NCBI GenBank assembly: GCA_007844125.1 | Contig: CM017572.1 | Location: 37,568,736 to 37,632,735, forward strand | Reading direction: 5' to 3' | DNA length: 64,000 nt | Origin: Sinonovacula constricta | Taxonomy: Eukaryota > Mollusca > Bivalvia > Cardiida > Solecurtidae | Shown: positions 9,649 through 43,364 of the stretch, one piece after another | How positions within the stretch are numbered: the stretch's first letter is position 1 | Layout of the letters: each line of letters begins with the position of its first letter | Program-made: the position numbers and the translations under genes | The notes under the pieces: model-generated | Database searches by the model: none | Told to the model about the DNA's origin: nothing | What the model saw: the letters and a program-made list of their open reading frames with translations, nothing else

Positions 9649-9690
9649 CCTACGTTGTCCTCACCATCACTGATGTTGTTCCCCTTTCAG

Positions 9691-15089: not shown

Positions 15090-15184
15090 CTTATTGATAG
15101 CGTGTTTTCGATCGCGTTTCGTGAGGCTATGGCAGTGTACTGAAACGTTGCAATGCATTTGTTTTCACCGTCGCTATCCGCCAT
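15090..15184 (-). CDS. Possible first exon of a divergent gene
   Basis: The minus strand has a strong initiation context (GGCAAGATGGCGG). It opens MADSDGENKCIATFQYTAIA and runs about 31 codons to a possible donor AAG|GTGTAAC at 15090. GC content is higher than the surroundings. It lies next to a perfect CRE, so it could be one arm of a bidirectional promoter. No downstream exon was found, and AAGATGGCGG is also the YY1 motif, which occurs without coding. Low confidence. Confidence 0.25.
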
Positions 15185-15206
15185 CTTGCCTCGTGTCATG
15201 ACGTCA
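15181..15206. promoter_or_regulatory. CCATCTTG (YY1-like) plus perfect CRE TGACGTCA
   Basis: A CCATCTTG motif at 15181-15188 is followed 10 bp later by the full palindrome TGACGTCA at 15199-15206, in a local GC-richer patch. YY1 and CREB/ATF sites of this kind are typical of TATA-less metazoan promoters. It sits about 600 bp upstream of the signal-peptide ATG at 15811 and just behind the possible minus-strand start at 15184. Promoter function is inferred. Confidence 0.45.
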
Positions 15207-15810
15207 CCTTGGATAACATAATACGCTACTCGCAGATATCATAATATTTTTTTTCTAAAACGGAGAAATAGTTTTTAAAATGTTAAGAAAGTGTCCCTTG
15301 CCCAGTAACAATTTCTGAATGTCCAGTGAACCAATAGATTATAACGTTTTATATATATGTAAATCCATTGAAGTAACAGTCTTCTGTGAGGTTAAAAGCA
15401 AACACTTTTTACCGACTTGATATTGAACAATGTGAAAAAATACTTTATGCTAAAGACCTAGATTATATATTCGGTCATATTTTAGGGAAATGTACACACA
15501 CGTGTAGGTCTTTGTTGATGCCAATCTATCAAGCGACACAACCAGTTTGTATTTGCTGGCTGCTCTGGTATTTTTTTGTTATTGCTCGCTGGTCACTATT
15601 TGCCACCTTTGACATAAATCTGCTCATCCGAGACACTATTCGAAACACATCGGCTATTTTTCTTTCAAGATGGGTACGTAAAAAACCGAGATGTTGCGAA
15701 CGAAATCTACTGTCAGATTGGATAAGATTACTAATGTGAATATATCCAGTTAAAACCCAATTTTTGGCTGTTATAATAGTTATGGATGGACTGTCGGAGT
15801 AACATCTAAG

Positions 15811-15877
15811 ATGTCCCAAGTTTCACTGAAGGTTTTGTTGTGGATTTTTATCGCGTTCCGGGCTTCGTCGGCTGCAG
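15811..15877 (+). CDS. Exon 1: signal peptide
   Basis: ATG TCC CAA starts MSQVSLKVLLWIFIAFRASS-AA. That is a basic residue followed by a hydrophobic core and small residues before a predicted cleavage near the exon end. The donor GCAG|GTAATG leaves phase 1. This joins to the Kunitz exon at 27697 to give AA-D-DTPDLC. The linkage across an 11.8-kb intron rests on phase, on the need for a signal peptide, and on the absence of any other candidate start exon between. Confidence 0.65.
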
Positions 15878-18754
15878 GTAATGTTATTAATAACCATCTA
15901 TGATAAAGAATCGGCTGTTAATTAACAGGTGTTGATATATGACTGAAAACACGTACCAGACAATGCAACATTTAAACTATCAATAAATCTTCAACTATGG
16001 AATATCATAGAAATGCTTTTCTTTGGGCGGACTGAAGAAAATGTTACTTGATAAGAAGTCAATAGTGTTACATGTTTGCTGTCATAAAACAGACAATGTA
16101 GAACAAATTAAATCTCATTGAGTGTGTACAAAGTGTAGTGGCAGTGTGGTGAAGGGGTACTGGTCCAAAAAGGCCGCAAACCAGAAAGGCCTGTACCAAA
16201 AAGGCCGCAAACCTGAAAGTCCACAAGCCTTAAAGGCCTTACATATAAAAGGAGATGGTGAATCTTATATGTTATAAATCTTAATACAGTAAATGTTATA
16301 TAACTATATATGATTATAATAGTCACTAAAAGGAGACCTGTTTTGAAATAATATTAATTTATGCAGATAAACGTTGAACACTTATAGATCTGCTTAAATT
16401 GAAGTAATTTATAACATAATTTTGTTATAACATTAACTTTAATTGTTAAATTATTACATTCCTACTTCATATTGTCTATTTTAAATTGGAAAGTTTGTTT
16501 TTAAGAGTTAGTCTCGTTTTTTTATGAAATTTCTTTCGCAATGATTGAAGCCAAAGTTTAAAGGTAAATTAATTAGCAATACGATATTATTGCAGCACCA
16601 TAATTACAAATTAGAATTCAACAATTTGTCTGGCTTTGTTATTTTATCATTAAACTATCTAGCATCAAACGCATATTCAAAATCCTATACTGCATGAAAC
16701 TTGCAGCCTTTTAGGTTTGCGGCCTTTTTGGTAAGACCTTTTTGGTCAACTGCCTTTTTGGTTTACGGCCTTTCTGGTTTTCGGGCTTTCTGGTAACCAA
16801 CCTGGTGAAGGGGCCTGCAGGTGGCCCGGTTGGCTTGGTGGAGCTTCGGAGCAATGGGTTGTAGGTTTGATCCCACATCGGGCACTCTTTTTTCCCTTGA
16901 TATACTTTACTGGTGTCAGAAGTAAACGGAAGCGGGTGCAAGTCAATCCGGCCACAACCAAATCCGGCCACAAGTTAATCCGGCCACAAAATAAGTCAAT
17001 CCGGCCACAAAAAAGTCAATCCGGCCTCACTGCCCTGGGAAAGCGGTCAAACCGGCCACATTTTAGATATATCCTCATAATGAACAAATATTTATGCTTT
17101 GATTTTGTGTTTTATTTAAATCTTTTTGTATATATTATCATCATTAAATATGTTAATAAGTATAAATATTTGTATAACGTCGTTTTAATTTCATCTTGTA
17201 TTTTATGCTGTTTTTGTTTGTCTAATAAATGATTAATTGTATCATAATAAAAAGATTGAATATTGTTTTTCGCAATGTTTTTATTTCATTTCCATTGTAA
17301 ACTGTCGGCATATTTTGTGCGAGTTTTAATTTTGATATGGCCTTTAAAGATATCTATATGATTGCGCACGCGTAATTACTTAATTACTAGCAAGTTTCTA
17401 TGATGTCGTTTGGTGCAGTAATTATGGTTTTAACGCCTCTAATCAAACCCCTGCCAACTTATTCTTCGTTATTGCCAAACTTGCATCAGTAATTAAAATT
17501 GCTAATGTGTTAATCAGATGAAGATGTAGCAGTTTGTTTAACCAAACAATAGTACAAAGAACGAAGAATTAAAAAGTTTAGCAGTTTGTATTTAAAATGG
17601 GTATATAAGTATTAACGGACGAAAAATGGTACTACAAATCACCATGAGCGAGGCGTGCGTACACTGTTTACAGCTAGTTGTGGAGACTGATGAAGCTGTC
17701 TCCTGTGATAGTTGTGAGGGATGGCAACACAGGGCGTGTGACACAGGTAAATACTCTAAAGCCTGATATAAAGCAATTTTCAATATTAATAAATAGAGAG
17801 ACGAACGTATGCAATGCCACTCGATTACCGACATCTGCAGTGAGTAGGTGTTCAAATTAATGGAGATGAAGAATGTAAAAAGTAAATATATGTGTGTTTA
17901 AAACTTCTCCTATGTATAAATCTTATTAATATTTTATAGAGAGAGAGAGAAAGAGAGAGAGAGAGTGATAATTTTAAAACATAGTATTATTATTATTATT
18001 ATATTGCTATTATATTGTTATTATGTTATAGAAGATGATAGTACATTTGATCGTTATAGTATCTTAACAAAAATCTTAATAATTTTAAATATGATCCTTT
18101 GATATCTGCTTTCAGGCTGGCATCGTCGGCTAAATATCCGTGCCGGAGCAGGACCGCCTTTCTATACCTTGCTGACCCTGCTCCACAACGAGGCCAAAGA
18201 CGTTGCAGCTCAGCGACAGTTGGTCTGTGAGATGGCCCTGCGGAGTCTGCAGCGCAAAGAGTACAGACGGATGCAGGGTCAGATCTTTGCCGCATGGGAT
18301 AGGTTAGTATAGAACTATATAGCAGTTGTATTATACTAAAAATATTTAAGTGATACAATCAGTGAATCATTTAATAATTACGTGGCGACAACTAATCTAC
18401 GTCTATTATCAATTTCAGTTACAGGACAAATGGCTTGTCAGCGACCGGCCTACTGAAGAAGGTATCCTGCATGTATCGTCCAGCCCTGTTGAGAGTTGCA
18501 CCCGATGAAGTGGCGGTTGACTCCTAAATGAGATGACCAATCAGCAAGTCTCACTTAAGTGAAAAGAAGTGAAAAGAGAACTGCTCACTTGTTACTACCA
18601 CCATTTTAAACTGTTAATAATATGCTATTTTAATTATTATTTTTGAATAAATGTTCCTTATGCATATGTGTATGTTTTTTCTTTGTAAAATACATGATAT
18701 AACAACAACAGTAACTACTACTACACAAACACCAACTGGTGATGATGATAATGA

Positions 18755-18790
<36 letters not shown>

Positions 18791-24700: not shown

Positions 24701-27700
24701 CTTAGGTCTGGGTCCATCAGCAGTCATAGGCCATTCCTTATGTCTGGGTCCATCAGTCATGGGCCATTCCTTATGTCTGGGTCCATCAGTCATGGGCCAT
24801 TCCTTATGTCTGGGTCCATCAGTCGTTGGCCATTCCTTATGTCTGGGTCCATCAGTCATTGGCCATTCCTTATGTCTGGGTCCATCAGTCGTTGGCCATT
24901 CCTTATGTCTGGGTCCATCAGTCATGGGCCATTCCTTATGTCTGGGTCCATCAGACATTGGCTATTGCTTAGGTCTGGATCCATCAGTGGTTGACCATTC
25001 CTTATGTCTGGGTCCATCAGTCGTTGTCCATTCTTTATGTCTGGGTCCATCAGTCATTGGCCATTCCTTAGGTCTGGGTCCATCAGCAGTCATAGGCCAT
25101 TCCTTATGTCTGGGTCCATCAGTCATGGGCCATTCCTTATGTCTGGGTCCATCAGTCATGGGCCATTCCTTTTTCTGGGTCCATCAGTCGTTGGCCATTC
25201 CTTATGTCTGGGTCTATCAGTCGTTGGCCATTCCTTATGTCTGGGTCCATCAGTCATGGGCCATTCCTTATGTCTGGGTCCATCAGTCATGGGCCATTCC
25301 TTATGTCTGGGTCCATCAGTCGTTTGCAATTCCTTATGTCTGGGTTCATCAGTCATGGGCCATTCCATATGTCTGGGTCCATCAGTCATAGGCCATTCCT
25401 AAGGTCTGGGTCCATCAGCAGTCATAGGCCATTCCTTATGTCTTGGTCCATCAGTCATGATCCATTCCTTATGTCTGTGTCCATCAGTCATGGGCCATTC
25501 CTTATGTCTGGGTCCATCAGTCATGGGCCATTCCTTATGTCTGGGTCCATCACTCATGGGCCATTCCTTATGTCTGGGTCCATCAGTCGTTGGCCATTCC
25601 TTATGTCTGGGTCCATCAGCAGTCATAGGCCATTCCTTATGTCTGGGTCCATCAGTCATGGGCAATTCCTTATGTCTGGGTCCATCAGTCATGGGCCATT
25701 CCTTATGTCTGGGTCCATCAGTCATTGGCCATTCCTTATGTCTAGGTCCATCAGTCGTTGGCCATTCCTTATGTCTGGGTCCATCAGTCATGGGCCATTC
25801 CTTATGTCTGGGTCCATCAGTCATGGGCCATTCCTTATGTCTGGGTCCATCAGTCGTTGGCTATTGCTTAGGTCTGGATCCATCAGTGGTTGACCATTCC
25901 TTATGTCTGGGTCCATCAGTTGTTGGCCATTCCTTATGTCTGGGTCCATCAGTCGTTGGCCATTCCTTATGTCTGGGTCCATCAGTCATTGGCCATTCCT
26001 TATGTCTGGGTTCATCAGTCATGGGCCATTCCATATGTCTGGGTCCATCAGTCATAGGCCATTCCTTAGGTCTGGGTCCATCAGCAGTCATAGGCCATTC
26101 CTTATGTCTGGGTCCATCAGTCATGGTCCATTCCTTATGTCTGGGTCCATCAGTCATAGGCCATTCCTTATGTCTAGGTCCATCAGTTGTTGGCCATTCC
26201 TAATGTCTGGGCCCATCAGTTATGGGCCATTCCTTATGTCTGGGTCCATCAGTCATTGGCCATTCCTTATGTCTGGGTCCATCAGTCATAGGCCATTCCT
26301 TATGTCTGGGTCCATCAGTCATGGTCCATTCCTTATGTCTGGGTCCATCAGTCATAGGCCATTCCTTATGTCTGGGTCCATCAGTTGTTGGCCATTCCTT
26401 ATGTCTGGGCCCATCAGTTATGGGCCATTCCTTATGTCTGGGTCCATCAGTCGTGGGCCATTCCTTATGTCTGGGTCCATCAGTCATTGACCATTCCTTA
26501 TGTCTGGGTCCATCAGTCGTTGGCCATTCCTTATGTCTGGGTCCATCAGTCATGGGCCATTCCTTATGTCTGGGTCCATCAGTCATGGGCCATTCCTTAT
26601 GTCTGGGTCCATCAGTCGTTGGCTATTGCTTAGGTCTGGATCCATCAGTGGTTGACCATTCCTTATGTCTGGGTCCATCAGTCGTTGGCCATTCCTTATG
26701 TCTGGGTCCATCAGTCGTTGGCCATTCCTTATGTCTGGGTCCATCAGTCGTTGGCCATTCCTTATGTCTGGGTTCATCAGTCATGGGCCATTCCATATGT
26801 CTGGGTCCATCAGTCATAGGCCATTCCTTAGGTCTGGGTCCATCAGCAGTCATAGGCCATTCCTTATGTCTGGGTCCATCAGTCATGGTCCATTCCTTAT
26901 GTCTGGGTCCATCAGTCATAGGCCATTCCTTATGTCTGGGTCCATCAGTTGTTGGCCATTCCTTATGTCTGGGCCCATCAGTTATGGGCCATTCCTTATG
27001 TCTGGGTCCATCAGTCATTGGCCATTCCTTATGTCTGGGTCCATCAGTCATAGGCCATTCCTTATGTCTGGGTCCATCAGTCATGGTCCATTCCTTATGT
27101 CTGGGCCCATCAGTCATAGGCCATTCCTTATGTCTGGGTCCATCAGTTGTTGGCCATTCCTTATGTCTGGGCCCATCAGTTATGGGCCATTCCTTATGTC
27201 TGGGTCCATCAGTCGTGGGCCATTCCTTATGTCTGGGTCCATCAGTCATTGACCATTCCTTATGTCTGGGTCCATCAGTCATTGACCATTCCTTATGTCT
27301 GGGTCCATCAGTCATAGCCATTCCTTATGTCTGGGTCCATCAGTCGTTGGCCATTCCTTATGTCTGGGTCCATCAGTCATAGGCCATTCCTTATGTCTGG
27401 GTCCATCAGTCGTTGGCCATTCCTTACATCTGCAGCTAGTTGGTCTAGTGTCTGTATAATGTACCTGTCATATGTTCACTCTATTTAACATCCATCACAG
27501 TAAAGATTTTATGTGAAAATATGAAAAAGTCAATATTATGTACAAGCATTGTAGAATTACAAAAATGACCTTCATACAGTTTATACATTTAATTAGTTGT
27601 CATTAAGTTAAATTCATCCAAAAGCACCTGCAAATCTGATTATTGTCCCTTTTCATATGTCTTTAACACTTTAGTTTGTGACAAAAACTGTTTCAGATGA

Positions 27701-30700
27701 TACACCTGACCTGTGCAGCCTGCCAGCTCAGCCAGCCAATCAATCGGACTGTAAACATGTTTACTTCAACTGGTACTATGACCCTGTTGCTAAAGAGTGT
27801 ATCGAAGTTACGTTCTCAGAGTGTGACGATAATCGGAAAAGCTTTTCATCAGAGGAGGAATGTTATAAACATTGTGGAGGTAGGTACCATCCACACACAG
27901 TCTGCAGTGGGGGGCATGATAGGGTACCATCCACACACAGTCTACAGTGGGGGGCATGATAGGGTACCATCCACACACAGTCTACAATGGGGGGCATGAT
28001 GGGGTACCATCCATACACAGTCTTCAGTGGAGGGGGGCATGATGGGGTACCATCCATACACAGTCTACAGTGGAGGAGGGCATGATGGGGTACCATCCAT
28101 ACACAGTCTACAGTGGAGGGCATGATAGGGTACCATCCACACACAGTCTGCAGTGGGGGGCATGATAGGGTACCATCCACACACAGTCTACAGTGGGGGG
28201 CATGATGGGGTACCATCCATACACAGTCTACAGTGGGGGGCATGATAGGGTACCATCCACACACAGTCTACAATGGGGGGCATGATGGGGTACCATCCAT
28301 ACACAGTCTTCAGTGGAGGAGGGCATGATGGGGTACCATCCAAATACAGTCTGCAGTGGGGTGAATGATGGGGTACCATCCACAGACAGTCCACAATGGG
28401 GTGCATGATGGGGTACCATCCACAGACAGTCCACAGTGGGGTGCATGATGGGGTACCATCCACAGACAGTCTACAGTGGGGTGAATGATGGGGTACCATC
28501 CACAGACAGTCTACAGTGGGGTGAATGATGGAGTACAATCCACAGACAGTCTACAGTGGGGTGAATGATGGGGTACCATCCACAGACTGTCCACAGTGGG
28601 TGGGTGGGGGCATGATAAGGATCATCCACACACAGTCAGCAGTGGGCGGGCATGACAGTCCAAAGACAGTTAACAGTGGAGGAGGGCATGATGGGGTACC
28701 ATCCACAGACAGTCCGCAGTGGGGGGTATGATGGGGCACCATCCACAGACAGCCCACTGTGGGGGCATGATGGGGCACCATCCACAGACAGCCCACTGTG
28801 GGGGGCCTGATGGGGTACCATCCATAGACAGTCCGCAGTGAGGGGCATGATGGGGCACCATCCACAGACAGTCCACAGTGGGGATATGACAGGGTACCAT
28901 TTACAGACAGTCCACAGTGGGGGGCATGATGGGGTACCATCCACACGCAGTCAGCAGTGGAGGGGGGCATGATAGGTACCATCAACAGACAGTCTGCAGT
29001 GGGGCCATGACAGGGTACCATCCACAGACAGTCCGCAGTGGGGCTATGACGGGGTACCATCCACAGACAGTCCGCAGTGAGGGGCATGATGGGGCACCAT
29101 CCACAGACAGTCCGAAGTGGGAGGCATGATAGGGTACCATCCACAAACAGTTGACAGTGGGCAGCATGATGGGGTACCATCCACAGACAGTCCGAAGTGG
29201 GAAGCATGATGGAGTACCAACCACAAACAGTTGACAGTGGGCAGCATGATGGGGTACCATCCACAGGCAATCTGCAGTAAGGGCATGACTGGGTACCATC
29301 ACAGACAGTCCGCAGCAAGGGGCATGATGGGGACCATCCAAAGACAATCTGCAGTGGGGGGCATAATGAAGAGGGGGGGCATGATGAGGTACCATCCACA
29401 CACAGTCCCCAGTGGGGGGCATGATGGAGACCATCCATACACAGTCTCCAGATGGGGTCATGATGGGGTACCATCCAGAGACAGTCCACAGTGGGGGGCA
29501 TGATGGAGTACCATCGACACACAGTCTGCAGTGGTGGGGGGGAGGCATGATGGGGTACCATCCATACACAGTTTGCAGTGGAGGGCATGATGGAGTACCA
29601 TCCACAAACAGTCTGCAGTGGGGGGCATGATGGAGACCACCCACAAACAGTCCGCAGGGGGGGGCATGATGGAGTACCATCCACAAACAGTCCGCAGTGG
29701 GGGGCATGATGGAGACCATCCATACACAGTCTGCAGTGGAGGGCATGATGGAGTACCATCCACAAACAGTCCGCAGTGGGGGGCATGATGGAGTACCATC
29801 CACAAACAGTCCGCAGTGGGGGGCATGATGGAGTACCATCCACAAACAGTCCGCAGTGGGGGGCATGATGGAGTACCATCCACACACAGTCCACAGTGGG
29901 GGGGGGGGGCATGATGGAGACCATCCATACACAGTCTGCAGTGGAGGGCATGATGAGGACCATCCATAGACAGTCTCCAGATGGGGGCATGATTGGGGAC
30001 CATCCATAGACAGTCCACAGTGGGGTGCATGATGGGGAACCATCCACAGACAGTCCACAGTGGGGGGGCATGATGGGGGACCATCCACAGACAGTCCACA
30101 GTGGGGTGCATGATGGGGGACCATCCACACACAGGCTGCAGTGGTTGGGGGGGGCATGATGGAGACCATCCATACACAGTCTGCAGTGGAGGGCATGATG
30201 GGGACCATCCATAGACAGTCTCCAGATGGGGGCATGATGGGGGACCATCCATAGACAGTCTACAGTGGGGGGCATGATGGGGGACCATCCACAGACAGTC
30301 CACAGTGGGGCGGGGCATGATGGGGGACCATCCATAGACAGTCTCCAGATGGGGGCATGATGGGGGACCATCCACAGACAGTCCACAGTGGGGGACATGA
30401 TGGGGTACCATCCACAGACAGTCCACAGTGGGGGGCATGATGGAGTACTATCCACAGACAGTCCACAGTGGGGGGCATGATGGGGGACCATCCACAGACA
30501 GTCCACAGTGGGGGGCATGATGGGGTACCATCCACAGACAGTCCACAGTGGGGGGGCATGATGGAGTACCATCCACAGACAGTCCACAGTGGGCGGCATG
30601 ATGGGGTACCATCCACAGACAGTCCACAGTGGGGGGGGGGCATGATGGGGACCATCCATACACAGTCTGCAGTGGGGAGGCATGATGGGGGACCGTCCAC

Positions 30701-33700
30701 ACACAGTTTGCGGTGGGGGCAATGATAGATGATATATGTCCACATATATTCCGCTGTGGTTTACAGCTTCAAGTTATGTTAAGACCAACTGTTTAAGACT
30801 CATCAGCAAACATGACTGGAAAATTCTTCTTTTTAATGACTAGTACTGGACAAGTAACCTGGACAAAAAAGACTTGTCTGAAAATTTGCATCATTTTCAA
30901 GTAACAAACAACACATTATTCATATCTACAACTAACAAACAAGTCTTTGTCTTGAAGTGTTGTATGTATCTTATATCTTGATTTAATGTTTTGGACAGGT
31001 GCATGCATTTTACATGTACCGCCTTTACGTATTGTTGATAAATGCTCCTGGCATGAAATTTATTGTCTTCTTCACTAATTAAAAACTGCTGTGCATTTGT
31101 CTCATGTCCGACTGCCGATTTATGACTTGTCCTGGACTTATTTAATGATCAATGACCAGAAGCCTAAAACTGCATTTTGTCTTGTCTGGGACATCGGGCT
31201 ACCATATTTTTCCAGCCCTGGCAAAGAGTGTAGATCCTGGTCAAACATCTTAAAGCAGGAGCAAGGATCTGGATCCACCCTATTTGCTTAAGTTTACAGT
31301 TCTAAATTAATCCTACTGTACTGGATCTGGAAGGCTCCAAGTATGGGAGGCCCTGGGTTCGATCCCGGGCCACAACATTCCAAAGTTGTAAATAGTAGTG
31401 GTATAGCTCCCTTGCTAATGCTCAAGCATATATAAGGGTAGTTCCAGACTGGTTGGCCCATTGTCAGGATAATGTGACTGGATGTGGTAGCATGCCAGGT
31501 GTTTAAGGCATGCTATACATGATAAAGGCAGCACTATATCTGCTTCAAGTGGACACCATCTCAAGATAAGTGAAATACTGTTTGTGGGACGATTTACCTA
31601 ATAAATGAACAAACAATAATCCTACTGTCTTGTATTCCAGAGAAACTCATTGAGCTACATCCACCACAGAATGTGACCCTTGCTTACATCAAGGACACCA
31701 TGGTGTATGTGTATTGGTACCCGCCAATCAACTATGACCTTGTCAATCCGAAGGAAACCGACAAGAACCAGTCCATTGATGATGCTGCTGTGAATGAAAC
31801 AAGTAAAACAGATGACAGTAATCAGACTAAAAATCAGACTACACCAAGTCAAGTGACAAATTTCACAAAAACAACTACTTTAAGTCCAGGTGCAGCCAGT
31901 GCAGCCAGCACTAAACCAGCCAACAATAAATCAAGCACTAAACCAGCCAGCATTGGTACAAATACAGGCACAGACAGCTCTGAGGATTCAAGCAGTAAAC
32001 CATCCAAGCTGCAGACTGGTACACAGGCTGATGCAGTGAAAACAAGTGACCAGAGTACTACCAGTCCATCATCAGCAGCACAGGTAGCATCCACAACTGA
32101 GGAGCTTCTGCAGACAAATTTACGTCTAAGTGACTTCATCGGAAAAAAAGAAGTTCCGTTTCATCTGGCCACATTGACACATTATATTGTCTCCTATAAG
32201 TTTGGTCAGGGTAAGTGTATCTTTCACTTTTTTAATTCATTTATTGTTCTTCTACAAATTTCCAGATTGTATCTTAATATTGATTTTTAATAGTCATTAT
32301 TAAGATATTTTTTATTTGAATGTTTAAACTGATTTTGTTGATGCAACTTGCTTGATAAAATTCACATATTTTTAATTTTTTGTCAAAAATTATTTATGAA
32401 CCAATGTAAGTAATGAATTAAAATATTAAAGCTTTAATAAATATTTTTCAAATATTTTTCTTAAACATCATAATAAACGATTGTTACCTGAAAGTATCTT
32501 GCAAAATGCTGTTTATTGATGTCCTACATCTATCTGAAAAGTGAACTATAACGCCACAATCGTCATTTCAAACACATATTTCCTATCTAAGCCACGCTGT
32601 ACAGTTAGCCATTTTTAAATTAAGAAAACCATGTGACTACTTATGTTTCAGTTCATCCATGTCATCTGCTTTGACATCATCGTCTATTTTTAGCAGGAAT
32701 CCTTTTCGTTATTTGTAAATTTGAAAAGAATACACATTTAAAAGTACTGCTTAATGAGTTTTACTTTTACTGCTCTAAAATTAAGATACTCTTGAAAAGT
32801 CGTCACAGGTCAGACTGAAGTTTGATTTTTCTGTAGAATTTAACTTTAAAGTTGTTAGTAGTGGCTTCCCTCCTAACTCTCTGGGCTAAGGGGACAGCAA
32901 TACGCCTGACTCGTCGGTGTCAATATAATGAACCAGCCGGGTTCAGTCCCCTTGGCACCTCATAAGTGCCCCAGTGCTATAATTATAGAAATGTCCCTGC
33001 ACAGTATCAGCAAAAATGGTGGCAAATCCCATCCCTCAGATCCCTTGAATGTCTAGAGAGAGTTAAGGCTTTAGTACATTGGTTATTTTACTTTTCATTC
33101 CATTGAACAGTGTTCAAATTCCTTTGCTGTCACGATTTCTTTTTCAAGCTATGTTTAAAAAAACAATAATAATAATTAGAGATTATTTATGTGAATTTTG
33201 TACATGTTTCAGATGAAACATTCACCAATATTATTGTGCCAGAAAACATAACAGAGAAGATTGTGACTGATCTCCAACCAGGAACCCACTACTACCTGAC
33301 TGTGTATGCCGTGTACATCACCAACACCTCCGTCGAATCTCCCGCACTGAGTTTTATCACCAGCTCCAGTAGCTCACAAGCAGGTACACTGGGGGCAACC
33401 ATTTTCATTCCACATTGATTTGGAAGCAATTCTTAATGTTAATTATCTGTTGAAAAATACATGCAGAATTAACAGGAGATTGATTGATGCAGCAGCAGAT
33501 AGAGCCAGTCATGACCAGTTTCCTGTATTTCCTGGATCAACCCTTTCTGTGCAAGTTCTGACGCTCAGTAAATATTATTCCGATAAGGAATTTGTCAATA
33601 AAACAGTCTCTTTAAACTCTTTATTAATGAATATTGAGGAAATAAAAAGTTTAAAGAGACAAGTTTCTAACAATTCTGAGCAGGCTAAGAAAAGCTGTGC

Positions 33701-35333
33701 ATCTTTAATTCTGTTTAGATCTTGTAAGGGGAGATAAACTGACTTGTTAACCCGTTACTTCATTGCTTGTTTTGTCCAAATTGTTTAAAAGCCGTGACGT
33801 AACAATTAATCTAAATTTTAACAGCTAGCTCATCCAAGTTCCAATTGCTCTTTCGTTGTTCGTTTATTTTTGTTCTCTTATCGATAATCAATAAATACAT
33901 CTCTTAGCGCAGACCCTAAAGAACACACCGGAAGTTTACATGTAGTTATGCTATTTTTTAAACTTTCTGTTGAAAAGTAGCTCATAAGATCGATATGCCA
34001 CCACTCACACTTAAAACAGTTTGTTGAAACGCACTTAGGAGTGATCGTAAGACAGAAATTTAGGAAGGTTTTTCAAATCGCAGATTTATAATGAAACACA
34101 CCATACTACACAAAGTTTGCTTATGATTACTTTTTTGACATTTGATATTTTGTTCATATTATCATTATATAAAATCGGTCTGCTTACAAAAAATATAAAG
34201 GTATTTGGATTACATATTTGGATGAGTTCGTAACTGGGTCACGTATGGTCAAAAAGTAGGCCACTAGGTCAAATCTTAAAAAACCTTCGTGAACACACAA
34301 GAGACCAAATTTATGGTCCAATTTCACTAAACTTGGCCAGAATGTTTGCCTGTATGAAATCTAGATAAATTTTGAACTGGGTCACTTGGATTCAGTAGAT
34401 TACTAGGTAAAATTCTAGAAAATGTTATCAGCCAAGTGGCCAAACTAATGGTCCAATCTTCACCAAAGATTTTTAAAGTAAATAACTCTTAATTACTTGA
34501 CGCTAGATATAAGCCTACTAAAAGCCCTTGTCCTTTATGGCCCTCCTTTTTAAAATATTAAACATATTAAAGCTGGTATACGACAGTTTGGACCAAAAAT
34601 ATGTTCATTATACATCTTAATAAACCATTGTTATTTGAACAGATCTCGTAAAATGCTGTTTATTGGTGTCCTACACTTGTCAGAAAAGTGAACCATAACG
34701 CCACAATCGCCATAACACAAACATGTATCTCCTATCTGAGCCACACTACACAGTTAGCTTTTTTTTAAACCAAGAAAACCATGTGACCACTAATGTTTTA
34801 GTTCATCCATGTCATCCGCTGTGACATCGATGTCTTTTTTTCCAGGAATCCTAATCTTTATTTTTTCTAAATTTGAAAAGAATATATGTTTAAAAATATT
34901 GATTAACAAGTTTTAATGCCCTAAAAATTCCAATTGTTCCTATTTACAGATATTGTTACATGTTTATAATGTAGGCAAACTGTTGGATACCACCTTTAAA
35001 AGTTATCTTGAGTATCTCCTTACCTTACAGAGAACTGCTACTGTGATCGTTTCGGCACTGTTGGTGGCCAACGGCGATGTAACCTGTCCCTATCTGAGAA
35101 GCCAAACTGCCCCTGCAAGAAAGGCTACGAGGGTCTTTTCTGTGAAGTGTGCCAACACAAGTATTACAGGACAGCGGTCGGCATGCCTTGCCATGAATGT
35201 CCATGCTCCCTAAATCATTCATCGGGTCTCTGTCATTTTGGTGAGTCTTAACCCTTAGCTTGCTACATTTTGTTAACCCATGCTAAATTCTCAGGGTTTT
35301 TTTCATCAATATTATATTTGTTACATGCAGGGA

Positions 35334-35419
<86 letters not shown>

Positions 35420-38400
35420 ACATGTAAGGGTTGATATACTTATAAACAGAGACTGAGCAGCAAATAGTGTAGATCCTGATCAGACAGCTCCTAGCAGGGA
35501 TATATATATGTTACATGTCAGGGTAAATATACTTATAAACAGAGACTGAGCAGCAAATAGTGTAGATTCTGATCAGACAGCTGATCTGAATCTACGCTAT
35601 TTGCCTAAGCCTTATAAATATGCCGGCTAAGTGTAAATAAAAAAAATAATTTTTGTGTGCTTTATTTTAAAAACAGTTGAATTCTCGGTTTCATTTTTAT
35701 CTAAAAAAAAACAAATTACATTGTAAGTAAATGTGTCAGTCATACTACTAAATAGAACAAACAGATTTGTATACTAAACAGCCTTTGACCCAGTTTTCCT
35801 CTCTAGCTACCTTTCCCCCATAGTTAAAAAACCCCAATTTAAGTGAATTTTTTGTCTACATGAGTCATAGGTTGAAATGAATACTCTGAAGATGTGTTAA
35901 ATATAACATTTTCTTTTTTAGTTGAGAGGTATCTTCACTGCACTCAGTGCAAGGAGGGTTATGCTGGCAACTTGTGCCATCGATGTGCCAACGGTTACCA
36001 TAGAAACTCAATCAAGATGCAGTGTGAAAAATGCCGGGGCTGCTCTAATATAGAGCCAGGCTTAATCTGCGACCCATTTACAGGTAAACCAGCAGTTTAA
36101 TGTGTGCTTTTCATACAAATTAGTTATAAGTTATGATATTTAAATATTTAAAGAGGACTTGCCTTGCTTATTTAGCGTCTATTTACCCTTTTCTTGAGAA
36201 TATCTATATGTTAATGTGTAAATGGTTCAGTGTAAAATGATTTTCATAAAGAAAATATTGTATTGAGATGTGTTTTTTTTTGTAATGTTTTTAAAGTCTG
36301 ACATATACTTGATCCAAGATCAGTACCTGGGTAGAACCACTGGTGCACTGCAGGTCAGCTGGAATAACTTCCACATTAAGACCTGGGATTCAAATCTACA
36401 CAGCACCATTCCTTGAAATTAGAGGGCTTCATGTTTCTTCTTCAAGCCATATGTGCATGTGTTGTTTGACCATAGATGTATAGGTGAAATGTATCTAACA
36501 CCAAGGTGAAATGTATCTAACACCAAGGTGAAATGTAACACCAAAAAAAACATGAATAAATAAATAGACATTTTAGGAGCTGTTCTACCAACCATTAATC
36601 AGATAGGGTGTACAACTATTACCCAGGCAACTGTCTGGTAGCACAAGGCTTCAGTTCACTAGTTGAAAGTTTCCACATCGTCTGATACCCAGGATTGACT
36701 ATTCCATTTTACAACATTCATCGACAGTGGGTCTTCCATCTTATCAGACTGAATAGAACAAGAATTAGCCAATCATAAATTAATACTGCTTACAAAATCT
36801 ATACTCTTCAGCAGGGAGCTAGAAGTATAACAATGACATCGCCATTTTGACAAGTCTGTCAAATCAATGAAAGAATGAGCTTTATCCTTGGTCTGAAATC
36901 TTCATCTGATTATGAAATGACCAATCAAGATTGTTACCAGAAATGTCAAAAAGTGAACTAAATATCCCACAGGCAATGAATTGAGAGTAACAGAATGGAT
37001 CGGTCGTGGGTGTCCCACAATGAAGTTTCCAAGCAACTACATGACATCAGTATAAGACACAAAAAAGCATAGAAATCACATGTAAACCTGATAAATTCCA
37101 TATTAAAAGAAGGGGTGCTACTCTAACTAATCAGATTGCATTGTCTTATCTCCCTTGATGGGTATGAAGAATAATTATTACTTCAGAAATAGACTGTGCA
37201 AGAACTTGTTAGACTGCAACATGCAGGTAAAACCCCTTTTTGTTGCATAATATCAGCCATGAGCAAAAGGGAAAAATAAAAAGTAATAAATAAAAATTTG
37301 TTTTCAAACATAAATAAAAATTAAAAAATATTTTATTTTCTCATAATTGAAATACAGAAAAAATCAACCAACATTAGTAGCATCAATGGCTGGGAGTAAG
37401 AGTTGCCAGCTTGTAACTCCTCAGCTTCTAACCTTATAAAATACAACTCAAAGGTGGCAGCCATGGCTGAAGATAATAGTTACAAAGTTGTATCTCCTCA
37501 ACTTTCCTGGGTTTGGGTCTCGGCTGGTGCAGGAATGTTCATGTGGGGAGGACTTCTAGCTGACCTTGACCTGCAGCTTGCTGGTGTTACTACCCAGACA
37601 TTTGTTGGTGGGTTTTCTTCTACCACTAAAGATGGACAATGCCAAGATAACTATAGTTGTGCCAGTATAATTAATTAAAAATAGGAAGCATTTTTATTTC
37701 AGTTATATAATAGGGAAATTTAGTTTTACAGATGATGTTTATTAGTTTGACCATGTATTCTCAGGGTACTGTCTGCAGTGTGTCAACTCTACAGGTACCA
37801 ACTGTGAGACTTGTATGGAAGGATATGTGGGCAATAAAAGCAATGACGTCCCATGTTTGCTTGTTCAAGGTGAGACATAGTTTTAATGTCACAATTCAAA
37901 TGAAACATTGTGGTTCAAAATATTGTCTTAATTCCTATGTATTATCTCAGGATTATTAATAATTGTCTATGATAATGCAGCAAAGTTTGCTTAAAACACT
38001 ATAAATGATAGTTAATGTTGAAAAACTACAAAAAAATACATCATTTGAAGCAGGTTTTCCAGTGTTCAAAATCCTGTCTGCAAGAAGGTTCATCTATAAG
38101 CAACAACAAAAACAGCCTGGATATGTATTTTATAACATTTAACCTCCAGTGATACAATGTGCATGTCCATTTTATTTATAACACCCCAACACTTTAACCA
38201 AGTGCTTAATCATACCCCCTAAGAGTCACTTTGACCAAGTGCTGTGTTATATCCTACCACTCCCAAAATACTTTAACCAAGTGCTAAATTTTATCCCCCT
38301 TAACCCCCTTGAGTATGGTTTTTAAAGTCAATTCATGGCAAAACCTTTTGTATAACGAGGACTTCCTGCTGAACTTTCGTGCATTTGTTGTTCCATCTTT

Positions 38401-39935
38401 GATATTTGTCAAGGGTATTCTTCTTATCCAACATTATTTATGTCAGTAAGAATTGTACAGTATTTTTTACTAAATGCATTATTTTATATTAAATCTGTTA
38501 ATTGGCTATTCTTTGTCAGATTAACCCAGATTTCCTTACATTTGCCAAGTTTGGTTTCATATGGTCTCTGTAAATAAGATATAAGCATAGTAGAAAACAG
38601 TTTTGTACTAGTTAACCAGGACACACCTTGAACCGCTGGTATGTCTGCATTACAGATAGTTGTAGACTGGCTGTTGACACGGGTACTGGTGGTGAGCTGG
38701 GTGTACTGCGGTATTGGTATAATGCAGACCAGGCACGCTGTGAACAGTTTCAGTATCGAGGACAGGGAGGTAACTCTAACAACTTCCTGAGTGAGGAGAG
38801 CTGCCTGGAGACGTGTCTGGGCATCACTAGAGATGGTTAGTCCAGTCTTACACATTTTTTTTATACAAATGGCCCTCTGGCTTGTCAGTACTGGTTATGC
38901 AATAATAAAATATGCAAATATTTGAACAAGTCCTGTCTTACACATTTTTTATACAAATGGCCCTCTGGCTTGTCAGTACTGGTTATGCAATAATAAAATA
39001 TGCAAATATTTGAACAAGTCCTGTCTTACACATTTATTATACAAATGGCCCTCTGGCTTGTCAGTACTGGTTATGCAATAATAAAATATGCAAATATTTG
39101 AACAAGTCCTGTCTTACACATTTATTATACAAATGGCTCTCTGGCTTGTCAGTACTGGTTATGCAATAATAAAATATGCAAATATTTGAACAAGTCCTGT
39201 CTTACACATTTATTATACAAATGGCTCTCTGGCTTGTCAGTACTGGTTATGCAATAATAAAATATGCAAATATTTGAACAAGTCCTGTCTTACACATTTA
39301 TTATACAAATGGCCCTCTGGCTTGTCAGTACTGGTTATGCAATAATAAAATATGCAAATATTTGAACAAGTCCTGTCTTACACATTTATTATACAAATGG
39401 CTCTCTGGCCTGTCTGTACATTTTTTGTACTAGTTATACAACAATAAATTATGCAAATATTTTATCATGTCCTGTTTTATTGTACTCATTTATTATACAA
39501 ATGACTCTATGACCTGTCTGTCCAGCTTATACAATAATAAAATATGCAAATATTTGATCAAGTCCTGTTTTACACTGTTATGTTAACTATTCCATATAAA
39601 TTCTATGTACGGGTATTTAAAATTGAGTTATTAACAGATGTTAGTTTTCTTCGTCAGGTTTCAAGTCATCTAACCTGCCATCCCCTGGTGTTATAGCTGC
39701 TATAGTGATTACCATCATCGTAGTTCTTTGTGCTGTGATTGGATATTTCGTGTATCGCCGATCCAGAACATATTCACCTGGTCGACCGTTCTGGACTGTG
39801 GAACTAAAGGATGATCATGAGGGGGTGAATTTCAGTGCCTTGCCAGAGGACGAATTAGAGCGACAAAGACAGGAGTACGAGAGGTCACACAAATCAAGTT
39901 CTCAGCCATACTCACGCCTGTCGGAAGAAACATAA
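15811..39935 (+). CDS. Kunitz/FN3/laminin-EGF type I membrane protein, nine exons
   Basis: Assembled exons are 15811-15877, 27697-27879, 31641-32210, 33213-33383, 35031-35240, 35922-36083, 37765-37869, 38656-38835 and 39658-39935. All eight introns are phase 1 and all junctions stay in frame, giving 641 residues. The predicted order is: signal peptide (1-22); Kunitz domain (29-82); FN3 domain (about 91-325) with a Ser/Thr/Asn-rich insert between its first and later strands; three laminin-EGF modules (about 333-487); a Kunitz-like domain (492-543) lacking the Cys14-Cys38 pair; a TM helix (about 561-583); and a 58-residue tail. The uniform phase is typical of shuffled extracellular modules. I do not recognise a named orthologue with this order. 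A role in cell-surface adhesion or protease control is inference from the domains. Confidence 0.82.
15878..16146. other. Start of intron 1
   Basis: Unique AT-rich intronic sequence up to the SINE/MITE complex. The end of this stretch (AGTGTAGTGGCAGTG) is the beginning of the disrupted SINE. Confidence 0.5.
16158..16802. mobile_element. MITE with subterminal GGCC repeats and 11-bp target duplication
   Basis: The left arm starts TACTGGTCCAAAAAGGCCGC and the right arm, inverted, starts GGTTGGTTACCAGAAAGCCC. Both arms hold several copies of a CAAACC/AAAGGCCG sub-repeat. The direct repeat TGGTGAAGGGG flanks the element exactly (16147-16157 and 16803-16813), consistent with the 9-11 bp duplications of Mutator-like elements. 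There is no coding content. Removing the element rejoins a tRNA-SINE sequence across the target site, confirming the insertion. Confidence 0.8.
16814..16925 (+). mobile_element. tRNA-derived SINE unit (left unit of a dimer)
   Basis: A tRNA-like head (box A region TTGGCTTGGTGGAGC, box B GGTTTGATCCC) runs into ACATCGGGCAC, a T-rich stretch and CTTTACTGGTGTCAG. With the segment left of 16147 it forms one unit, AGTGTAGTG...GGGGCC...CATCGGGCAC. The same order recurs at 19165-19315, so two related SINE units lay in tandem before the insertions. Confidence 0.65.
16934..17065 (+). repeat. Left terminal inverted repeat of the MULE-like element
   Basis: It contains five AATCCGGCC repeats and one AAACCGGCC. 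It matches the inverted right arm 18993-19101 apart from an extra roughly 20-bp sub-repeat here. Repeated subterminal motifs are a common form of transposase binding array. Confidence 0.85.
17602..17609 (+). promoter_or_regulatory. TATA box of the element-encoded gene
   Basis: The sequence is TATATAAG. Transcription would be expected to start near 17630-17634. That is just after an upstream in-frame ATG at 17626 and before the ATG at 17644, which favours 17644 as the start codon. Confidence 0.55.
17644..18527 (+). CDS. Mini-protein of a MULE-like element: zinc-finger N-terminus fused to transposase C-terminus
   Basis: Exons 17644-17746, 18116-18302 and 18419-18527 join in frame (introns phase 1 and phase 2), giving 132 residues ending TAA. 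Residues 1-35 hold a PHD/RING-like ligand series C5xxC8, C21xxC24, H29xxC32 (CVHC, CDSC, HRAC). The final Cys pair of a PHD finger is missing. Exon 2 begins WHRRLN and continues PFYTLLTLLHNEA, then RKEYRRMQGQIFAAWD, resembling the segment after the DDE core in invertebrate MULE transposases. Exon 3 is LLKKVSCMYRPALLRVAP. Splice sites (CAG|GTAAAT, TTTCAG, TAG|GTTAGT, TTTCAG), TATA box and AATAAA are all present. It could act as a DNA-binding regulator or be inert. Confidence 0.7.
17939..17966. repeat. (GA)n simple repeat
   Basis: A short GAGA-rich run in the first intron of the element-encoded gene, followed by an ATT-rich patch to about 18010. Confidence 0.85.
18646..18651 (+). terminator. 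Poly(A) signal AATAAA
   Basis: Canonical hexamer 119 bp after the stop of the element-encoded gene, inside the element, so the transcription unit is self-contained. Confidence 0.6.
18722..18850. repeat. AAT-rich low-complexity tract
   Basis: ATAATAATA and AAATAAATA runs within the MULE-like element, close to its right arm. Confidence 0.85.
18993..19101 (-). repeat. Right terminal inverted repeat of the MULE-like element
   Basis: The inverse of the left arm: TGTGGCCGGTTTGACCG, then several GTGGCCGGATTGACTT repeats, ending GTAACCC directly before the target duplication ACGGAAGC. Confidence 0.85.
19110..19318 (+). mobile_element. tRNA-derived SINE (right unit of the dimer)
   Basis: GAGTGTAGTGCTATTGTGG leads into a tRNA-like head with TAAGCTCAGTAGGTTGAGC (box A) and GGTTTGATCCCC (box B), then ACATCGGGCACAC and a T-rich tail CCCTTTATATACAC. 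Order and wording match the disrupted unit at 16135-16925. The cloverleaf ends are mismatched, so this is not a functional tRNA gene. Confidence 0.7.
19319..19735 (+). mobile_element. hAT-like MITE copy
   Basis: It shares its full length with 30815-31222 (+) and with 50483-50897 and 61035-61455 (-). The termini in the family read CTGGAAAA near one end and GGGCTGGAAAAATATGGTAG inverted at the other. The internal phrases ACTAGTCCNGGACTGGTAACCTGGACAAAAA, GTACCGCCTTTA and AAAACTGCATTTTGACTTG are conserved. No coding capacity. The hAT label rests only on the end sequence style. Confidence 0.65.
19736..20074. other. Intron 1 interval, nothing recognised
   Basis: AT-rich intronic sequence between two repeats. 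No conserved feature was identified. Confidence 0.5.
20075..20292 (-). mobile_element. tRNA-derived SINE
   Basis: The minus strand starts GGGGTGCCCATGGCCGAGTGG (box A TGGCCGAGTGG, tRNA-Leu/Ser-like) and has box B GGTTCGAGTCC. The body includes GAGAGGTTTTCCAGCTAACC and CACTGGTGGTTCTATCC. A fragment with the same body lies at 36325-36400. Confidence 0.75.
20504..20986 (-). mobile_element. CRE-family MITE copy
   Basis: The ends TTTAAAGGTGATATCTGACG and, inverted, TTTAAAGGTGGTGTACAACA form terminal inverted repeats. The internal core matches copies at 34567 and 41529 in reverse orientation (GACATCAATAAACAGCATTTTGCCAGATCTG). Ends near TTAA hint at a TTAA-targeting superfamily. Confidence 0.75.
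21038..21465. repeat. 40-bp minisatellite, about 10.5 units
   Basis: The unit is ACTACCAATACATTGTGTAC followed by CACTTGGGTGGTCGAAATGT, with CGAAAGG and CAAAATG variants. It ends abruptly at the tRNA-like head of a SINE. Two more degenerate units reappear at 21740-21800 on the far side of the SINE, so the SINE was inserted into the array. Confidence 0.93.
21466..21740 (+). mobile_element. tRNA-derived SINE inside the 40-bp array
   Basis: The head has box A TAGCTCAGCTGGTAGAGC and box B GGTTCAAACC, followed by AAGTTGATAGTAGTGGCTTCC, CAGCCGGGTTCAG and CAGTATCAGCAAAAATG. The same body lacking the tRNA head occurs at 32840-33045. The first seven bases of the acceptor stem do not pair with the 3' CCAGGTC, so it is not a working tRNA gene. 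Confidence 0.78.
22020..27427. repeat. 33-bp minisatellite array, about 164 units
   Basis: The unit reads GGGTCCATCAGTCATGGGCC followed by ATTCCTTATGTCT. The left third favours TTTCATATG and the right part TTCCTTATG, so the array has regional sub-families. Higher-order blocks are marked by TTGGCTATTGCTTAGGTCTGG near 24595, 24958, 25858 and 26622, and by a 3-bp insertion ATCAGCAGTCATAGG near 24716, 25081, 25415, 25615, 26079 and 26842. Since 33 is a multiple of 3, long stop-free frames of 11-residue period appear in several frames and are not genes. It fills the downstream end of intron 1, stopping about 270 bp before exon 2. Confidence 0.96.
27697..27879 (+). CDS. Exon 2: Kunitz (BPTI) domain
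   Basis: The acceptor is CTGTTTCAG and the donor GGAG|GTAGGT; phase 1 at both ends. Residues 23-83. The cysteine spacing is C29-x11-C41-x15-C57-x7-C65-x12-C78-x3-C82, the Kunitz pattern with three extra residues in the first loop. YYDPVAKEC and SSEEECYKHC match the family core. The P1-equivalent residue after the second Cys is Lys (CKHVYF), which in the family suits trypsin-like targets. The usual Gly before Cys14 and Gly-Gly before Cys38 are replaced (SDC, FSEC), so inhibitory activity is uncertain. Confidence 0.88.
27880..30725. repeat. About 40-bp G-rich minisatellite filling intron 2 from its donor
   Basis: The unit reads GGGGTACCATCCACAGACAG followed by TCCACAGTGGGGGGCATGAT. Roughly 70 units, with GGTACC and GGACC variants and G-run length changes up to 11 or more. 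The first unit contains the splice donor of exon 2 itself (GGAG|GTAGGTACCATCC). The plus strand has two G-runs of four or more per unit. Long Pro/Cys/Trp-rich reading frames on the minus strand are periodic by-products. Confidence 0.95.
30815..31222 (+). mobile_element. hAT-like MITE copy
   Basis: Left end GACTGGAAAATTCTTCTTTT and, inverted, right end CAGGGCTGGAAAAATATGGT. It is collinear with the copy at 19319 in the same orientation. Short GCAAA direct matches flank it, too short to be sure of a target duplication. Confidence 0.68.
31310..31615 (+). mobile_element. tRNA-derived SINE, normal orientation
   Basis: A truncated head with box B GGTTCGATCCCGG is followed by the body (GGTATAGCTCCCTTGCTAAT, GGTAGTTCCAGACTGG, CAGGATAATGTGACTGG, CATGCTATACATG) and a 3' end TTTGTGGGACGATTTACC then AATAAATGAACAAAC. 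It is the same family as the minus-strand copies at 52961 and 63485. It ends 25 bp before the acceptor of exon 3. Confidence 0.75.
31641..32210 (+). CDS. Exon 3: first half of FN3 domain plus Ser/Thr-rich insert
   Basis: Acceptor TGTATTCCAG, donor CAGG|GTAAGTG, phase 1 at both ends, 190 codons (residues 84-273). The start reads HPPQNVTLAYIKDTMVYVYW-YPP, the A and B strands and conserved Trp of an FN3 fold. About 120 residues rich in Ser, Thr, Lys, Asn and Ala follow, with several N-glycosylation sequons (NET, NQT, NFT, NKS), like a mucin-type linker. The exon ends LTHYIVSYKFGQ, the C strand. The remainder of the fold is in exon 4. The insert therefore lies inside the domain, between strands B and C. 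Confidence 0.82.
32465..32790 (+). mobile_element. Fragment of the CRE-family MITE
   Basis: Matches the core of 34567-35002 in the same orientation (GCAAAATGCTGTTTATTGATGTCC, CATGTGACTAC, TTGACATCATCG) but lacks clear terminal repeats. The CRE position is degraded to TGACATCA. Confidence 0.65.
32840..33045 (+). mobile_element. SINE body without its tRNA head
   Basis: Shares AAGTTGTTAGTAGTGGCTTCC, CCAGCCGGGTTCAG and CAGTATCAGCAAAAATG with the SINE at 21466. It is 5'-truncated at the position where the head would join. Confidence 0.7.
33213..33383 (+). CDS. Exon 4: second half of FN3 domain
   Basis: Acceptor CATGTTTCAG, donor GCAG|GTACAC, phase 1 at both ends, 57 codons (residues 274-330). 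It contains VTDLQPGTHYYLTVYAVYIT, the classic E-F segment of FN3 (LxPGTxYxxxVxA), and ends in SFITSSSSSQ before the laminin-EGF modules. Sequons NIT and NTS are present. Confidence 0.86.
33384..34566. other. Intron 4, mostly unique
   Basis: AT-rich intronic sequence. The short reading frame at 33420-33737 has no recognisable domain and continues through the intron without splice support. Confidence 0.55.
34567..35002 (+). mobile_element. CRE-family MITE adjoining exon 5
   Basis: Left end TTAAAGCTGGTATACGACAG and, inverted, right end TTAAAGGTGGTATCCAACAG: clear terminal inverted repeats bounded by TTAA/TTTAA. The right end lies only about 28 bp from the exon 5 acceptor, so the element probably supplies that intron's branch region. 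Confidence 0.82.
35031..35240 (+). CDS. Exon 5: laminin-EGF module 1
   Basis: Acceptor CCTTACAG, donor TTTG|GTGAGT, phase 1 at both ends, 70 codons (residues 331-400). It reads ENCYCDRFGTVGGQRRC, then CPCKKGYEGLFCEVCQHKYY, then PCHECPCSLNHSSGLC. The CxC, CxCKxGYxGxxCExC and CxxCxC pattern is that of laminin-type EGF modules. The last cysteines open the second module, completed in exon 6. Confidence 0.88.
35337..35416. repeat. (TA)n microsatellite
   Basis: About 40 TA dinucleotides in intron 5. A partial echo of the adjacent sequence (TATACTTATAAACAGAGACTG) is duplicated at 35435 and 35530. Confidence 0.97.
35922..36083 (+). CDS. Exon 6: laminin-EGF module 2
   Basis: Acceptor TTCTTTTTTAG, donor ACAG|GTAAAC, phase 1 at both ends, 54 codons (residues 401-454). 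It reads YLHCTQCKEGYAGNLCHRCA, then NGYHRNSIKMQCEKCRGCSN. The module spans the exon 5/6 junction. The final part, GLICDPFTG, begins the third module. Confidence 0.88.
36084..37764. other. Intron 6 with a SINE fragment
   Basis: Mostly unique. Positions 36325-36400 resemble the SINE body at 20130-20220 (GGTAGAACCACTGGTGCACTGCAGGT-like, minus orientation). A 22-bp GGTGAAATGTATCTAACACCAA repeat occurs two to three times at 36483-36543. The reading frame at 37403-37678 has no laminin-EGF cysteine pattern and no splice-compatible ends, so I do not call it an exon. Confidence 0.55.
37765..37869 (+). CDS. Exon 7: laminin-EGF module 3
   Basis: Acceptor TATTCTCAG, donor CAAG|GTGAGA, phase 1 at both ends, 35 codons (residues 455-489). 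It reads GYCLQCVNSTGTNCETCMEG, then YVGNKSNDVPCLL. The CxxC, NCETC and GYxGN pattern completes the third laminin-EGF module begun at the end of exon 6. NST is a sequon. Confidence 0.87.
37870..38655. other. Intron 7, nothing recognised
   Basis: AT-rich intronic sequence. A diffuse internal similarity (ACTTTNACCAAGTGCT, three times at 38190-38290) suggests an old short tandem repeat. Confidence 0.55.
38656..38835 (+). CDS. Exon 8: Kunitz-like domain lacking the Cys14-Cys38 pair
   Basis: Acceptor GCATTACAG, donor GATG|GTTAGT, phase 1 at both ends, 60 codons (residues 490-549). It reads SCRLAVDTGTGGELGVLRYW, then YNADQARCEQFQYRGQGGNS, then NNFLSEESCLETC. The cysteines match Kunitz Cys5, 30, 51 and 55 (C492, C518, C539, C543). 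Cys14 is Gly (G502) and Cys38 is Gln (Q526), both losses at exactly the paired positions. The core YWYN, FQY and NNF residues are kept. The fold is likely retained but the inhibitory loop disulfide is gone, so I infer a structural or binding role. Reading through the donor gives Gly then TAG. Confidence 0.88.
38846..39580. repeat. 88-bp minisatellite in intron 8, about 8 units
   Basis: The unit runs CCTGTCTTACACATTTATTA, then TACAAATGGCCCTCTGGC, TTGTCAGTACTGGTTATGC and AATAATAAAATATGCAAA. Units 1-6 are nearly identical and the last two are diverged. Most units contain AATAAA on the plus strand. The array begins 11 bp after the splice donor of exon 8. Confidence 0.95.
39658..39935 (+). CDS. 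Exon 9: transmembrane helix and cytoplasmic tail
   Basis: Acceptor TTCTTCGTCAG; TAA stop at 39933-39935; residues 550-641. SPGVIAAIVITIIVVLCAVI continues GYFVYRR, a single TM helix with a basic stop-transfer. The tail holds PFWTVELKDDHEGVNFSALP, a charged stretch EDELERQRQEYERS and the end SQPYSRLSEET. It contains tyrosines in EYERS and PYSRL. No recognisable kinase or adaptor domain. Confidence 0.87.
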
Positions 39936-39951: not shown

Positions 39952-39957
39952 AATAAA
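39952..39957 (+). terminator. Poly(A) signal AATAAA
   Basis: Canonical hexamer 17 bp after the stop codon. A second AATAAA lies near 39984. The 3' UTR would be very short. Confidence 0.6.
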
Positions 39958-43199: not shown

Positions 43200-43364
43200 A
43201 AATATTACTTGGATTGTTGGATTGTACTTGGATTGTTGGACTTTCAGTATGTTCTTTCAAATTTAATTATTGAGATTTTTTTTATATGTGTACTTAGACA
43301 TACATATTCAAACACACTTTCCTTTTTTTTTCTTGTTTGTATGAAATACATATCACTGTTTAAC

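Follow-up and report, generated by a model that had tools for sequence, protein, structure and literature searches.

A predicted MEGF9-type cell-surface protein of molluscs and its Kunitz modules in Sinonovacula constricta

MEGF9, whose function is poorly known, is a vertebrate type I membrane protein in which a Ser/Thr/Pro-rich N-terminal part is followed by tandem laminin-EGF (LE) modules, a transmembrane (TM) segment, and a short tail that starts with PFWTIELKEDN. Here, we describe a gene whose predicted product shares this plan and adds to it an N-terminal Kunitz domain (K1), an FN3 domain split by a long loop, and a Kunitz-like domain next to the membrane (K2). It lies in a 64,000-nucleotide (nt) stretch of DNA (the window) from the bivalve Sinonovacula constricta (GCA_007844125.1, contig CM017572.1, positions 37,568,736 to 37,632,735 of the forward strand). 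Sequence comparisons indicate that the gene is real and that it belongs to an unnamed molluscan cell-surface family resembling vertebrate MEGF9.

Kunitz domains are also carried by the SPINT/HAI proteins, which are membrane-anchored serine protease inhibitors. Among the best 60 of 114 sequences matched in the PDB, K1 is closest to the domains of collagen alpha-3(VI), textilinin, and APP, K2 to those of bikunin (the best match) and boophilin, and the LE part to laminin; collagen alpha-3(VI), APP, and bikunin differ from the window protein in whole-protein architecture. In the literature searched, no paper combined Kunitz, laminin EGF, and fibronectin type III in bivalves, and among the papers listed no title or abstract opening described a Kunitz/FN3/laminin-EGF transmembrane architecture. 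The one paper in which these three terms met with transmembrane is, judging from the portion retrieved, a survey of C. elegans (PMC3534327). A candidate paper on mollusc MEGF9 (PMC6163488) was set aside, since its retrieved portion merely names MEGF9 as a published miR-125 target, citing a breast cancer paper.

A molluscan family with a MEGF9-type C-terminal half

The initial annotation had joined nine exons between positions 15811 and 39935, all separated by phase 1 introns, into a type I membrane protein of 641 residues. Joining and translating these coordinates (Table 1) reproduced the product, with eight GT-AG introns, every one in phase 1, and the proposed modules, their order, and the topology proved correct. 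In the joined protein, Pfam recovered Kunitz (77.7 bits) in two stretches and LE (39.7 bits) in three, while fn3 scored 23.3 bits, below the 25-bit cutoff. The FN3 β-sandwich is seen in the structure model of a Ruditapes relative (P0002), where it is interrupted by a low-confidence loop of ∼100 residues that is likely disordered; a fold absent from the output of the second structure comparison is not thereby excluded.

A search with the joined protein retrieved five relatives. Three more came from a search with the Ruditapes C-terminal half, and a further eight, together with one MEGF9, from a search with a C-terminal part taken from a unionid relative. Of these 16 relatives, 10 are named as molluscs (Ruditapes, Mactra, Dreissena, Potamilus, Sinanodonta, Haliotis, Argopecten, Ylistrum, Batillaria, and Acanthosepion); all are protein records. 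Common to them are an FN3 domain that holds a Ser/Thr-rich loop, three LE modules, a TM segment, and a short tail in which PFWT[V/I]E[L/F] adjoins the membrane and YxxL, which resembles YxxPhi-type sorting signals, stands near the end. The loop is covered in 14 and the tail in 15 of the 16 records, and YxxL is present in 15; Dreissena LOC127844063 isoform X2 (P0005) breaks off where LE 3 begins, before the TM segment. The window protein has all of these features and is thus a member of the family.

Three relatives, Ruditapes LOC132757449 (P0002), Mactra (P0003), and Dreissena P0005, repeat the Sinonovacula order of K1, split FN3, and LE modules at 39 to 45% identity. P0002 and P0003 continue through three LE modules, TM segment, and tail but, unlike Sinonovacula, lack K2, whereas the likeness of P0005 ends at the start of LE 3, with the K2 site beyond its end. 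In P0006 to P0016 (unionids, scallops, abalone, Batillaria, the cephalopod Acanthosepion, and records grouping with the last two), the core is shared, with split FN3 wherever the N terminus is covered, three LE modules, TM segment, and PFWT and YxxL tail; they differ from the window protein in that none of the 11 has a Kunitz domain by Pfam. Two family members appear to be misannotated: P0003 (Mactra antiquata) is called "basement membrane-specific heparan sulfate proteoglycan core protein" and P0010 (Ylistrum balloti) "laminin subunit alpha-like."

MEGF9 of Lemur catta (P0017; E value of 9.4) was the only row at an E value of ≤10 named as a nonmollusc among 973 candidates, 7 of the 12 rows carrying an organism name. 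In a pairwise hhalign comparison, a profile of 15 relatives aligned to MEGF9 through LE modules, TM segment, and PFWTIELKEDN at 5e-35. LE similarity could be common to any LE protein, so the TM segment and tail were tested separately: their profile in the relatives scored 37.6 bits against MEGF9 (maximum of 1.4 in 2,000 shuffles) and the tail alone 17.4 bits (maximum of 3.9 in shuffles). In the window protein, PFWTVELKDD in exon 9 follows the TM segment, and three LE stretches, whose counterparts in the relatives align to MEGF9, lie directly outside the membrane except that K2 intervenes between LE 3 and the TM segment in Sinonovacula only. We call the protein MEGF9-type rather than MEGF9, since it has three LE modules and not five. 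The initial annotation knew of no named family with this architecture, which holds for the order with Kunitz domains at both ends; the FN3-LE-LE-LE-TM-tail core, on the other hand, is common to 16 relatives, and its C-terminal half is of the MEGF9 type by profile alignment. This core is nameless in the records found, yet it appears to have a recognizable vertebrate counterpart.

Within the Sinonovacula genome (1.22 Gb, 177 contigs), exon 9 scored 103.6 bits in a TM-tail search, and no further copy of the LE-TM-tail part was found. The degenerate PFWT[V/I]E[L/F] pattern had one genome match, at this gene; its reversed control likewise gave one. By its tail, this gene is favored over the competing LE loci. 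A second MEGF9-type gene was sought in 14 stretches of 10 kb downstream of seven competing LE loci and rejected, as no TM-tail match fell below an E value of 0.58; the scan reached 20 kb per locus, and longer introns would escape it.

Two Kunitz modules with probably different histories

A PF00014 profile search of the whole genome gave 67 Kunitz matches, including K1 (39.0 bits; E = 1.2e-6) and K2 (63.3 bits; E = 3.1e-14). By Pfam and aligned cysteines, K1 is present in the five relatives that group with the window protein, four by Pfam match and Mactra P0003 solely as six aligned Cys, and is absent from the other 11. Seven of these 11 (P0006 to P0009 and P0013 to P0015), in which Pfam found no Kunitz domain, start with what looks by eye like a signal peptide; P0012 starts close before FN3 without such a stretch, and the start is incomplete or irregular, and unreliably covered, in P0010, P0011, and P0016. 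When a tree was built from the LE-TM-tail core, one branch (support of 99/98) separated the six K1-bearing rows from the rest, and the window protein fell outside the other five (96/93); the tree is rooted at the midpoint only, and long branches lead to the window protein, Dreissena, P0004, and Haliotis. By parsimony, K1 would have been gained once, in the ancestor of the window protein and its five closest sampled relatives, and thus appears to be a clade-level addition.

K1 of the window has six Cys in register and Lys after C14, the residue that we take to be P1 from Kunitz numbering; in the five relatives, this residue is Met, Ser, Pro, Gly, or Tyr. The C5-C14 loop is three residues longer in the window than in four of the five.

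K2 retains Cys 5, 30, 51, and 55 but has lost C14 and C38, and thereby the C14-C38 disulfide of Kunitz protease inhibitors, and carries Gly at the P1 place. The lost bond and the Gly-rich loop argue against canonical inhibition. Cone snail Kunitz proteins are among its PDB matches, and presumably their two-disulfide pattern is like that of K2. None of the 15 relatives that span LE 3 to the TM segment has a C-terminal Kunitz domain; there, LE 3 joins the TM segment directly, and no protein record covering the site supports exon 8. A single-sequence fold of exon 8 (mean pLDDT of 65.3; best Foldseek E value of 0.1, to bikunin) is too poor to serve as proof, so the Kunitz call rests on sequence. 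A recent duplicate elsewhere in the genome was rejected, as 361 bases around exon 8 match only themselves; the nearest other Kunitz exons are 40 to 50% identical at the protein level. Parsimony allows two histories for K2, a single gain on the lineage of the window protein or an earlier gain followed by one loss. It seems to be a predicted exon so far found in this genome only. The suggestion that the protein is lineage specific can therefore be kept for K1 as a property of one clade of the sampled rows and for K2 as far as sampling goes. A tandem repeat of 88 bp (38839 to 39575, ∼8 copies) occupies most of intron 8, right after the exon 8 donor.

Adhesion or uptake and competing roles

We favor, with a probability of about 0.7, a predicted MEGF9-type adhesion or uptake receptor of molluscs in which the Kunitz modules are later additions, for binding or spacing rather than conserved protease inhibition. 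Adhesion or uptake is the most likely role on this evidence. The rod of three LE modules would lift FN3 and K1 off the membrane, the long loop, probably glycosylated, would shield or extend, and the outer modules would bind a matrix or cell-surface ligand; the PFWT motif would be a juxtamembrane contact site, and the YxxL tail a sorting signal that drives internalization. Each Kunitz domain may have been added through the insertion of one symmetrical phase 1-1 exon, and both most likely serve as binding or spacer modules. Whether the whole arose by stepwise exon shuffling we judge to be an even bet: FN3 with its mucin-like loop would have come early, a clam ancestor would have acquired a Kunitz exon in intron 1, and in this lineage K2 would later have been placed beside the membrane and lost its inhibitory disulfide, the Kunitz folds being used for recognition and not for protease control. 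The MEGF9-type reading would give a family and a likely vertebrate counterpart to an unnamed set of molluscan proteins that databases list as uncharacterized, perlecan-like, or laminin-like, and two Kunitz exon insertions in one receptor would make a tractable case.

Several observations weigh against this reading. MEGF9 has five LE modules (in P0017) to the three found here, Pfam detects neither FN3 nor Kunitz in it at an E value of ≤0.1, and its tail is without YxxL. As a query in the Sinonovacula genome, MEGF9 gave 24 matches at an E value of ≤0.001 in seven places, all of them other LE loci and none this gene, which LE similarity by itself therefore fails to distinguish. Because the shuffled sequences contain no hydrophobic helix, part of the 37.6 bits may reflect TM composition, and the cleaner comparison is that of the tail alone. 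Near the tail end, the window protein lacks FY[E/D/A], a motif that every one of the 15 tail-bearing relatives has. Pfam misses K1 of Mactra P0003, and FN3 is weak in two records grouping with the cephalopod (15.4 bits in P0014; none at an E value of ≤0.1 in P0015). Finally, an open frame in exon 8 speaks only weakly for selection: 311, 328, and 187 of 2,000 neutrally mutated paralogs stayed open at three valid loci; eight of the 11 non-self loci (L010 to L020) were used, and the five on the minus strand (L010, L012, L013, L015, and L017), which had aligned to unrelated sequence, were dropped.

The initial annotation proposed a surface protease regulator, and a membrane-anchored inhibitor of the SPINT/HAI kind, with K1 acting at the cell surface on trypsin-like enzymes, would suit the strong Kunitz profile matches and the six Cys and Lys P1 of K1. 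We consider this improbable: P1 varies across the six species, the C5-C14 loop of the window is lengthened, K2 lacks both C14 and C38 and has Gly at P1, and none of the 11 relatives outside the K1 clade, seven of which start with a signal-peptide-like stretch, has a Pfam Kunitz domain. With P1 different in all six K1 domains and the disulfide gone from K2, conserved protease inhibition is unlikely, and protease regulation finds weak support. An equally slim chance, if not a slightly slimmer one, goes to a rapidly evolving receptor for self/nonself or microbial recognition, in which a conserved stalk bears a fast-changing tip. Identity between the window protein and its five K1-bearing relatives does fall from 56 to 59% in the LE modules to 30 to 41% in K1 and 15 to 25% in the FN3 loop (37 to 55% in the tail, for the four relatives that have one), and P1 and loop length vary. 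However, loose linkers and loops change fast without selection, and the genome holds no second LE-TM-tail copy. The gradient leaves room for a recognition role at the tip.

A more serious, still unlikely, alternative concerns exon 8, which may be a rarely used or decaying cassette outside the normal transcript of a protein with one Kunitz domain. Its absence from all 15 relatives covering the site, the lost Cys14 and Cys38, the weak evidence of constraint on its frame, and its donor (GTTAGT, 5.86, second lowest of eight) are consistent with this, and the exon can be skipped in frame, because its 180 nt lie in phase 1-1. Conversely, the Kunitz match is strong, the frame is open with both splice sites present, and the genome contains no close copy; the absence in relatives, moreover, comes from protein records and not from genomes or other isoforms.

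Gene model and its surroundings

Exons 2 to 7 and exon 9 align with relatives, exon 2 only with the five K1-bearing ones, and because relatives align across exons 2 to 7, the junctions from exons 2-3 to exons 6-7 are independently supported. Exon 1 has no homology support, as signal peptides do not align among relatives. It lies 11.8 kb upstream of exon 2 and, with a donor of 8.1 and a hydrophobic core of 3.03, is the best compromise among the 17 start/donor combinations kept in a scan of positions 8000 to 27690. It leads in neither value alone: a better donor (8.8), common to two rows, comes with a weak core (2.06), and a stronger core (3.44), in two rows with another common donor, comes with a weak donor (4.0). 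Exons 1 and 8 are the least certain of the predicted model.

TABLE 1 Features of the predicted gene in the window
Feature	Position	Strand	Content	Basis or remark
Exon 1	15811..15877	+	Start codon and signal peptide MSQVSLKVLLWIFIAFRASSAA	Best donor/hydrophobic-core combination of 17 candidates
Exon 2	27697..27879	+	N-terminal Kunitz (K1) with six Cys, Lys at P1, and a lengthened C5-C14 loop	Phase 1-1; Pfam, own-genome PF00014 search; aligned in P0001 to P0005
Exon 3	31641..32210	+	First FN3 strands, 139-residue loop, next FN3 strand	
Exon 3 loop	Protein 116-254		Rich in Ser/Thr and N-glycosylation sites	Same position in the 14 relatives covering it
Exon 4	33213..33383	+	Remainder of FN3 domain	Pfam; fold in model of relative P0002
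Exon 5	35031..35240	+	LE module 1 and beginning of module 2	Pfam
Exon 6	35922..36083	+	LE module 2 and beginning of module 3	Pfam
Exon 7	37765..37869	+	Remainder of LE module 3	Alignment with relatives
Exon 8	38656..38835	+	Membrane-proximal Kunitz-like K2, without Cys14 and Cys38	180 nt, phase 1-1
Exon 9	39658..39935	+	TM helix, 56-residue tail with PFWTVELKDDHEGVNFS and YSRLSE, stop codon	
Likely polyadenylation signal	39952..39957	+	AATAAA, shortly 3′ of stop	Read from sequence

The introns and flanks are rich in repeats. Minisatellites fill 22020 to 27426 in intron 1 (33-bp unit, ∼163 copies) and 27883 to 30707 in intron 2 (40-bp unit, ∼70 copies), both of which read as long spurious open frames; another occupies positions 1 to 7576 (24-bp unit, ∼314 copies). 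Intron 1 also contains an open frame (17596 to 17766) with weak zinc finger matches below the cutoff (Prok-RING_1, 22.1 bits; PHD, 20 bits), which may be left over from a mobile element, and a tRNA-like match (19199 to 19271; 31.8 bits versus an Rfam cutoff of 29) that is perhaps a SINE.

Downstream, 43194 to 53480 and 54297 to 64000 form a tandem segmental duplication with a spacing of 10.1 to 11.1 kb. Its three longest nonredundant blocks are 91.6 to 96.3% identical and one shorter block is 83.8% identical; the copies carry matched minisatellites with 31-, 37-, and 58-bp units and a duplicated minus-strand open frame (52529 to 52810 and 63026 to 63346) without a Pfam match. Elsewhere in the genome, matched clusters of Kunitz exons with near-equal scores lie ∼0.57 Mb apart (C3:37.83 to 37.91 Mb and C3:38.40 to 38.48 Mb), which suggests a large tandem duplication or uncollapsed haplotypes. 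The LE loci at C7:23.22 and 28.52 Mb occur as a similar pair.
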